This document shows, piece after piece, positions 10,470-12,687 of a DNA stretch of 64,000 nt (the stretch's first letter is position 1; the number at the start of each line of letters is the position of its first letter). This stretch comes from Chryseobacterium gleum (GTDB lineage Bacteria > Bacteroidota > Bacteroidia > Flavobacteriales_D > Crocinitomicaceae): contig CAMAXI010000002.1 in the NCBI GenBank assembly GCA_945862165.1, forward strand, positions 248,001 to 312,000. Reading direction: 5' to 3'. The translations under genes were made by a program, and so were the position numbers. The notes beneath the pieces are model-generated. The model searched no databases and was not told the origin of the DNA. It was given only the letters and a program-made list of their open reading frames with translations.

Positions 10470-11447
10470 ATGAAGATTTTGGTTGTACGTTTTAGTTCTA
10501 TTGGTGACATTGTGTTGACTACACCTGTTGTTCGTTGTCTAAAACAGCAACTTCCTGGGGTTGAAATCCATTTTTTAACCAAAAAAAAGTTTGCGGGAAT
10601 TCTTTCTTCGAATCCATATATTGACAAACTTCATACCATTGATCGTTCCATTAACGAAGTACTCTCTACCTTAAAAACGGAGAAATTTGACTTTGTGGTT
10701 GACTTACATACCAATTTACGCACAAAAAGTTTGCTTTGGAAATTACGTGTTCCTTCCGCTAGTTTTCCAAAATTGAATTTCAAAAAGTGGTTGTATGTAC
10801 GTTTTAAATTCAACAAGTTACCCGACACACACATCGTAGAACGTTATTTTGAAACCGTTAAAAGTCTAGGCGTTAAGAATGATCAGCAAGCTTGTGATTA
10901 TTTCATTGCTTCCGAAGATCATGTGGATACAACTACCATAGGTTTGGAACCTAATTCCTATATTGCATTTGCAATTGGCGCACAATTCGCAACCAAACGT
11001 ATGCCGACCAATAAACTTATCGAAGTCTGTAACGCCATCGGAAAACCTGTCGTTTTACTTGGAGGACCAGAGGATGCTGAAATTGCTAACTCCATTATTT
11101 CACAGTCTACAGGGAACATACAATCACAATGTGGAACGTTACGCTTGGGGCAATCTGCAAGCGTGGTTCAACAAGCGCAACTATTAGTTACCCACGACAC
11201 CGGATTGATGCATATTGCTTCTGCGTTTAACAAACGAATCGTTAGCATTTGGGGGAATACTACTCCAGCATTGGGAATGTATCCATATATGCCGCAAAAC
11301 AGCAAAAATTACAGCATACATCAAGTAGAGGGATTAGAATGTAGACCATGTTCTAAAATTGGATTTCAAGCGTGTCCCAAAAAGCATTTTTCGTGTATGC
11401 ATTTACAAGATGTAGGAAAAATTGTAGCGGAGATAAACCGTTTATAA
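10470..11447 (+). CDS. Glycosyltransferase family 9 (ADP-heptose:LPS heptosyltransferase-like)
   Basis: MKILVVRFSSIGDIVLTTPVVRCLK, THDTGLMHIASAFNKRIVSIWG. Confidence 0.88.
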   Translation: MKILVVRFSSIGDIVLTTPVVRCLKQQLPGVEIHFLTKKKFAGILSSNPYIDKLHTIDRSINEVLSTLKTEKFDFVVDLHTNLRTKSLLWKLRVPSASFPKLNFKKWLYVRFKFNKLPDTHIVERYFETVKSLGVKNDQQACDYFIASEDHVDTTTIGLEPNSYIAFAIGAQFATKRMPTNKLIEVCNAIGKPVVLLGGPEDAEIANSIISQSTGNIQSQCGTLRLGQSASVVQQAQLLVTHDTGLMHIASAFNKRIVSIWGNTTPALGMYPYMPQNSKNYSIHQVEGLECRPCSKIGFQACPKKHFSCMHLQDVGKIVAEINRL

Positions 11448-11448
11448 T

Positions 11449-11856
11449 ATGAATGATCAAAAACAAAGAACTTATACATATCCATTATTTACCTGGATAC
11501 TAACCATATTAATTGCACCTCTTTTTCTGGTTATAATTAGTATTATTAAATATGGATTTAGAAACAATCGATTTTTCGAAATTTTCGAAGTGTTATCCGT
11601 TTTTTTTATTCTCGGTGGGCTTTATTCATTACCAACTCTTTTAGTTTTTCTAATTAACTACTATTTTTTGACACAAAGAAATGTATCGAATTTACTAATA
11701 AGAAGTATATCTATGTTTATAGTTTATCTTTGTATCTATCTCACATTTTTATTTATTGGAGGATCTGAATCTATGAAATTAACCCTCGTTTATGGTATTA
11801 CAATGACTATTTTAGTTTGGATTGTTAAAATTAAACAACACAATAAAACACTATAG
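11449..11856 (+). CDS. Hypothetical multi-pass membrane protein
   Basis: 135-aa ORF with several hydrophobic segments, immediately downstream of the GT9 gene. Confidence 0.55.
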   Translation: MNDQKQRTYTYPLFTWILTILIAPLFLVIISIIKYGFRNNRFFEIFEVLSVFFILGGLYSLPTLLVFLINYYFLTQRNVSNLLIRSISMFIVYLCIYLTFLFIGGSESMKLTLVYGITMTILVWIVKIKQHNKTL

Positions 11857-12687
11857 ATTTCCACACGCCTCTTCTCCCAACACGCCAAGAGAACGAAGAA
11901 TTTGATACATGACTTCCCCATTGAGTGCTTCAAAAGTAGAAGCCTTTAATTTCTTTGAATTTTCAAGCGACTGAACAAACAAATAGGTATTGTTTAGAAA
12001 TTCTACATAGCCGATATACCACGCGTGTTGTTTGCCGTTTTGTAAACCTGTTACTTTGAAGGTATACACGTTTTTATTTACCAATTTAGTTAGGCGAAAC
12101 GTCGACTTTACCAATCGAATATTCTCAAAGGAGAATGGTAAGTTATAGTAGTACAACTTTTTCAGTAAATCGAATTGTTGTTTGGTGGAAATCTTTAGGC
12201 TATTGTTGTTCCAAAATACAGTTGTTCCTCCAGAAATATCTCTGTTACCATAATTTAGAAGATTTAACCAATTTTGTATCTTTTCCTGTTTTAATCTACG
12301 TGCATTCACCGAGAAAAAAACTGGATTATCCGACTTCAATGCTTTGATTAGATTGTCATTCGTTAAGGTGTCATCTCCATTTGGAGTCTCATAATTTTTG
12401 ATAACACCACTTTCTAAACCGATTAATCCTGCATATAAATGAAAAGAATTATTTGGAGTTTGTAAGGTTTGTATTTTTATGGTATCGCTGTAATAATAGC
12501 TATTCTTACTTTGATTAAAAACCACACATGCACCAGTTACTCCAAATTTTTTATAAATGGAATCTAGTTTTAGGTGTTGTTCGTGATAGGATTTTTGAGC
12601 GAACAAATTTTGAGAAGTAAAGGATATAGAACCCCAAACAAAAATTAAAAAAAACAAGAAATTTGAAAATCTAATCGAATAATTCAA
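11851..12687 (-). CDS. Secreted class D beta-lactamase (OXA)-like protein lacking active-site residues (predicted pseudoenzyme)
   Basis: FGVTGACVVFNQ, LIGLESGVI, ARRLKQEKIQNWLNLLNYGNRDISGG, FWNNNSLKIS, AWYIGYVEF align with OXA enzymes; the SxxK position reads NSFH. Confidence 0.75.
   Translation of the reverse strand: MNYSIRFSNFLFFLIFVWGSISFTSQNLFAQKSYHEQHLKLDSIYKKFGVTGACVVFNQSKNSYYYSDTIKIQTLQTPNNSFHLYAGLIGLESGVIKNYETPNGDDTLTNDNLIKALKSDNPVFFSVNARRLKQEKIQNWLNLLNYGNRDISGGTTVFWNNNSLKISTKQQFDLLKKLYYYNLPFSFENIRLVKSTFRLTKLVNKNVYTFKVTGLQNGKQHAWYIGYVEFLNNTYLFVQSLENSKKLKASTFEALNGEVMYQILRSLGVLGEEACGNL

Follow-up and report, generated by a model that had tools for sequence, protein, structure and literature searches.

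A gene for a class D beta-lactamase-like pseudoenzyme lies at 11851..12687 on the minus strand of the window, the 64,000-nucleotide stretch of DNA analyzed here. Its uninterrupted frame encodes 278 amino acids, as a sequence-only reading of the same DNA had placed it, and begins with TTG, which is the first in-frame ATG, GTG or TTG codon when the frame is read from 12687 to 11851. In L003 and L004, two close relatives whose upstream sequence reads similarly, this TTG is likewise the sole start candidate ahead of the mature domain, so initiation at TTG looks real. Residues 1-30 (12598..12687, minus strand) form a probable secretory signal peptide with an expected cleavage between LFA and QK. 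This Sec leader, also recognized in the sequence-only reading, was assigned by eye from the hydrophobic stretch and the A-Q junction rather than by a dedicated predictor; the orthologues carry a comparable hydrophobic leader. The pseudoenzyme is thus probably exported to the periplasm.

The convergent neighbor is a glycosyltransferase family 9 gene (GT9; heptosyltransferase family, PF01075) at 10470..11447 on the plus strand. The two genes are convergent in 10 of 12 genomes, with their ends either adjoining or separated by inserts. In G004 some 6 kb of a single contig separates them, and in G012 they are on separate contigs. Because the pseudoenzyme gene has its own direction of transcription, we use GT9 as an orthology landmark and not as evidence of a shared pathway. 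In the window, a gene for a 135-aa membrane protein (11449-11856) sits between the two and shares 6 bases with the end of the pseudoenzyme gene. Its product has no significant Pfam match, and the insert is found only in the window genome and with L018 (60% identity).

Two other contexts were considered and rejected. A locus shared with the intact homologues of the family is contradicted by their flanking genes, which differ in all cases compared. A link to a bla regulatory operon fails on location: the sole BlaI/MecI-like repressor of the window genome is encoded on another contig (G000:C12:32803-33105), unlinked to the class D homologue. A BlaI-like repressor domain is present in 12 of the 13 genomes of the genus. 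The three remaining PF00905 matches of the window genome belong to much longer open frames elsewhere.

Class D homology and predicted fold

Judged by sequence matches and a predicted structure, the pseudoenzyme is a clear member of the class D superfamily and fold, with a framework similarity far beyond chance. The NCBIfam class D model NF012161 matches it at E 3e-31, with 108 bits against a curated cut-off of 250 (the intact homologue L012 scores 271). The NCBIfam BlaR1 model, the top curated model by score, matches at E 3e-34, also far under its curated cut-off. Pfam PF00905 (transpeptidase) matches at E 3e-10, and sequence matches to BlaR1 and OXA structures in the PDB range from about E 1e-17 to 1e-24, with the B. 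licheniformis BlaR1 sensor first. A comparison with the intact homologues in hhalign returns 100% probability at E 3.5e-54. The OXA framework noticed in the sequence-only reading is borne out by these matches.

Structure prediction, which that reading had put forward as a check, also yields a class D fold. The AF2 model, built from a 44-sequence alignment, has a pLDDT of 89.9 and a pTM of 0.89. Foldseek aligns it with class D and BlaR/MecR structures at E 5e-22 and TM 0.80-0.89, the values for solved class D enzymes reaching 0.89. The same fold is predicted for the orthologue that has diverged most, at about 24% identity (pLDDT 86, TM about 0.73-0.80). The pLDDT values carry no information on function.

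Loss of the catalytic motifs

The catalytic positions of class D enzymes are replaced in the pseudoenzyme (all coordinates in this section are on the minus strand). PNNSFH (residues 78-83, 12439..12456) stands in place of PASTFK, so that the nucleophilic Ser is Asn80 and the carbamylated Lys is His83, exactly the two exchanges read from the sequence at the outset. The SxV position (residues 120-122, 12322..12330) holds Asp-Asn-Pro; its Ser is gone, as had been claimed, but the Ser column contains Asp120 rather than Asn, and the Val column contains Pro122. The KTG motif is altered too, although three alignment methods read its position (residues 210-212, 12052..12060) as Phe-Lys-Val and not, as first proposed, as KVTG. 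The same gap-free register, with Phe210 over the Lys, was obtained from MAFFT, profile HMMER and hhalign alike, which counters a KTG kept as K-V-T-G. A pairwise phmmer alignment to BlaR1 shifts this register by one residue, so the placement of Phe over the KTG Lys is probable, with a slip of one residue slightly open. The substrate-carboxylate Arg (OXA Arg250) is Asn256 (11920..11922), an additional catalytic change that had escaped the sequence-only reading. The YGN motif (residues 146-148, 12244..12252) is kept, as is the omega-loop Trp159 (12211..12213; OXA-10 Trp154), although the lysine for it to stabilize has been lost.

Catalytic loss extends throughout the genus. We compared the catalytic positions of the window protein and its orthologues (12) with those of 32 homologues that have intact motifs. 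The nucleophilic Ser and the carbamylated Lys are present in 32/32 intact homologues, whereas the orthologues have Asn, Gly, Glu or Pro in the Ser column (Ser once, in L009) and His, Asp, Tyr or Phe in the Lys column; both residues together occur in no orthologue of the genus. Conservation of the NSFH motif in relatives, another of the proposed checks, is seen only in part: SxxK is absent from every orthologue, but the residues that replace it vary. The SxV Ser column contains Gln, Asp, Pro, Asn or Arg (Ser once, in L004), and the Val column is mostly Pro. At KTG, the Lys column is Phe or Tyr in 12/12 orthologues and the Gly column is Val or Thr. The Arg equivalent to Arg250, found in 31/32 intact homologues, is replaced by Asn, Gln or His in all orthologues but one, which has Arg. 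The framework is retained: Glu92, Gly94, Ala116, Gly147, Ile166, Gln171, Trp223 and Gly226 are present in all 12 orthologues, and Trp159 in 11.

On these replacements, the pseudoenzyme is almost certainly not a beta-lactamase, nor a sensor that can be acylated, and is likely to have no enzymatic activity. Its overall class D homology would fit a beta-lactamase or penicillin-binding protein that is still active by means of an atypical active site. However, the class mechanism requires an acylated Ser and a carbamylated Lys; Ser80, Lys83, SxV, the KTG lysine and Arg256 are all absent, and the NF012161 score is 108 against 250. We regard an active enzyme of this kind as extremely improbable.

Selection on the pseudoenzyme gene

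The pseudoenzyme is under purifying selection. Pairwise dN/dS among seven close orthologues (NG86, 274 codons) is 0.09-0.22, compared with 0.10-0.18 for GT9, 0.09-0.15 for bestrophin and 0.04-0.10 for RecJ among the neighboring genes. The dN/dS of a decaying gene would approach 1. We found neither of the pseudogene signs sought, a broken frame or relaxed selection, in the orthologues, all of which are free of in-frame stops. With motif loss throughout the genus and the predicted fold intact, these values agree with the original proposal of a class D-fold pseudoenzyme maintained by selection.

A decaying beta-lactamase gene that has yet to acquire stops would also have lost its catalytic residues, and it could account for the inserts between neighbors at the locus in some genomes and for a synonymous divergence above that of the neighbors. 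Against this stand the dN/dS values, a frame that is open in 12/13 genomes, a fold kept at 22-31% identity, and the new conserved block and tail described below. Decay is thus very improbable, and recent decay is ruled out by the conservation across the genus together with dN/dS.

The synonymous divergence itself is 0.3-1.6 for the pseudoenzyme and 0.1-0.6 for its neighbors, and it is uneven along the gene (residues 31-150 versus 181-270; window 11877-12597; L001-L007). In the half that contains the former active site, synonymous divergence of the NNSFH group from the NNTFD group has reached saturation; L003 and L004 are near-identical in the last third. This suggests that allelic exchange or mosaic genes lie behind the uneven divergence.

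Distribution and phylogeny

The host belongs to a freshwater bacterial lineage in which the pseudoenzyme is retained nearly genus-wide. We surveyed 59 related genomes, 13 of them from the same genus, for which the dataset consists mostly of MAGs. Exactly one pseudoenzyme gene is carried by 12 of these 13 (11/12 besides the window genome). The sole exception, G007, is 80% complete and also lacks the GT9 orthologue; a missing contig and a joint loss of both genes are each possible. Since identity within the genus drops to 22%, the pseudoenzyme clade is old.

In a wider sample, with 399 genomes from the order and 396 from the phylum, we extracted 150 homologues from outside the genus, and 145 of these have the Ser/Lys pair. 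The genus orthologues form a single clade in all trees (SH-aLRT 97-100), also when either long-branch member is removed. Descent from one nearest intact clade was considered and rejected, as the clade sits on a long branch for which the tree gives no placement. Intact SxxK motifs in sister taxa had been named as a sign of recent decay. The sister genera are indeed intact, but recent decay does not follow from this, because the loss of SxxK is old and genus-wide.

Five other Bacteroidota homologues (L170, L176, L194, L177 and L031, the last of which keeps the Ser) also lack a full SxxK. They branch with intact relatives in other parts of the tree, which speaks against a common origin with the pseudoenzyme; L170 adjoins an intact paralogue from the same genome (L181). 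From this scattering it follows that catalysis has been lost several times, and the losses in these five are apparently independent. In this sample, only the genus of the window shows catalytic loss in nearly every species.

A shift of constraint to residues 175-206 and the C-terminal tail

The pattern of conservation indicates that selection has shifted: the former catalytic positions are drifting, and strong conservation is found instead in residues 175-206 and in a Cys-containing tail. Residues 175-206 (LKKLYYYNLPFSFENIRLVKSTFRLTKLVNKN; 12070..12165, minus strand) form a block that has come under new constraint and lies over the class D dimerization face. We measured block identity in 16-residue steps for six divergent orthologues and for the intact homologues. 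It is 0.67 in the orthologues versus 0.31 in the intact homologues for residues 175-190 (LKKLYYYNLPFSFENI), and 0.39 versus 0.25 for residues 191-206, whereas the SxxK block (0.61 versus 0.79) and the KTG block (0.29 versus 0.48) show the reverse.

In a gap-free alignment, residues 175-206 of the pseudoenzyme fall over OXA-10 170-201, the span that holds the OXA-10 dimer contacts named below. The register was set with an OXA-10 segment whose residue names agree with PMC7459404 and PMC10755735. The dimer contacts of OXA-10 and OXA-655 are K182, E183, K189, E190 and E199 (PMC7459404), and the dimer face of OXA-48 includes E185, R186 and R206 (PMC10755735). The position of the block suggests an interaction through the old dimer face. 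The block is also rich in hydrophobic residues, and packing rather than an interface may explain part of its conservation.

The C-terminal tail, GEEACGNL (11854..11877, minus strand), is lineage-specific. The column of Cys275 is Cys in 12/12 orthologues, and this residue is missing from most intact homologues. Each orthologue (L001-L014) has at least one further Cys in its mature part. The site of this Cys varies, being position 54 in seven orthologues and near 240 in L008-L010, a pattern that resembles a switch of partner in a tail disulfide.

Conserved residues of this kind could point to a different enzyme, with new cleft chemistry based on His83, Asp83 or Tyr83, on Lys211 or on Cys275. Residue 83 is His in 6/12 orthologues, residue 211 is Lys or Arg in 10/12, and Cys275 is general. 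However, residue 83 switches between His, Asp, Tyr and Phe within one genus, the cleft is without any invariant polar set, and Cys275 lies in the terminal tail. We therefore consider new chemistry improbable.

Proposed role

We propose that the pseudoenzyme is a periplasmic protein of class D fold whose capacity for hydrolysis and acylation disappeared in the genus ancestor, and that it has been kept as a non-catalytic binding or scaffold protein (probability roughly 0.6). The catalytic center is entirely gone, and the scaffold has therefore most likely been put to new use in binding. After the ancestral class D (OXA) fold protein had lost both activities, the former pocket would have been vacated and then occupied in part by an aromatic side chain, the Phe or Tyr at the KTG Lys. 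The conserved face 175-206 would mediate pairing, either between copies of the pseudoenzyme or with a protein of the envelope, and the Cys tail might aid this pairing. That such a protein-protein interface is the working part of the pseudoenzyme has, in our estimate, slightly less than an even chance.

Binding could instead take place in the cleft. As a non-covalent ligand receptor, the protein would hold a cell-wall fragment or a beta-lactam-like molecule, unreacted, in the emptied class D cleft and report it. The fold and the framework near the cleft (YGN, Trp159, W223xxG226) are kept, the BlaR1 sensor is the nearest curated model by score, and nearly all genomes of the genus have a BlaI-like repressor domain. 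However, the cleft-lining positions are conserved for no single chemistry, a transmembrane signaling part is absent, and the BlaI-like gene is unlinked, on contig C12. Beta-lactams are held non-covalently by the carboxylate-binding Arg and the KTG lysine; with both of these gone, class D-type non-covalent recognition of beta-lactams is unlikely. We judge a cleft receptor to be unlikely overall. The sequence-only reading offered ligand sensing or binding as the function. Such a role in the old pocket finds no support: pocket positions vary freely among orthologues (Asn, Gly, Ser, Glu or Pro at the Ser; His, Asp, Tyr or Phe at the Lys), a Phe or Tyr stands at the KTG Lys, and the new constraint falls on residues 175-206. 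Covalent sensing of beta-lactams is also unlikely. The available text of PMC9834060 describes BlaR1 as sensing beta-lactams via acylation of its sensor domain, and the pseudoenzyme is unable to sense in this way because the serine is absent.

A more far-reaching version of the binding or scaffold role is tentative, and we lean against it: the genus might have turned the one class D beta-lactamase it had into a protein for interactions in the periplasm, with the dimer face as its functional site and the pocket abandoned, and similar independent conversions might have occurred elsewhere in Bacteroidota (L170; L176 with L194; L177; partly L031). If the binding role is true, a resistance enzyme fold has taken on a structural or regulatory role, for which residues 175-206 are the candidate surface, and there are several comparable, independent parallels. 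The family is also a natural experiment on an OXA dimer face freed from catalytic constraint. Furthermore, resistome surveys count OXA-like genes by homology and could miscount this lineage as resistance.

Comparison with known systems

Class D homologues without the catalytic serine were already reported as sequence clusters in 2022, as an uncharacterized kind, and the genus family is a lineage-wide variant of these with a proposed function. A literature search for class D pseudoenzymes, by this and related names, returned nothing relevant except PMC9045261. In its available text, this paper defines "pseudo-DBL", a term reserved there for characterized proteins, and lists clusters of class D homologues that lack the catalytic serine, including cluster 12; cluster 14 carries SxxH. 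The pseudo-DBL and motif-poor DBL clusters resemble the pseudoenzyme in being class D homologues with motifs incompatible with activity, and its sequence shows motif loss of this kind. The comparison is by description, and in that text the clusters are listed only, without orthology, selection or shifted constraint. The same text presents YbxI/BAC-1 and CDD-type proteins as low-activity pseudo-DBLs with little or no role in resistance. These are class D homologues like the pseudoenzyme, but YbxI/BAC-1 (cluster 19) retain the catalytic motifs that it lacks. What appears to be new is an orthologous family that spans the lineage, shows evidence of selection and a conserved surface that has shifted, and has independent parallels.

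The sensor domains of BlaR1 and MecR1 (1nrf, 2iwd) share the fold and give the best single sequence match (E 2e-24). However, the pseudoenzyme consists of a leader and one domain only, within its 278 aa. It has Asn80 instead of an acylatable Ser, and lacks an M56 protease or membrane part and a linked BlaI/MecI gene.

With class D (OXA) enzymes (OXA-10, OXA-48, Chitinophaga pinensis 7k3m and Sebaldella termitidis 6n1n), the pseudoenzyme has in common the fold (TM 0.83-0.89), probable export, YGN, the omega-loop Trp and WxxG. It differs from them in being without SxxK, SxV, KTG and Arg250, and in adding the conserved 175-206 block and the Cys tail.
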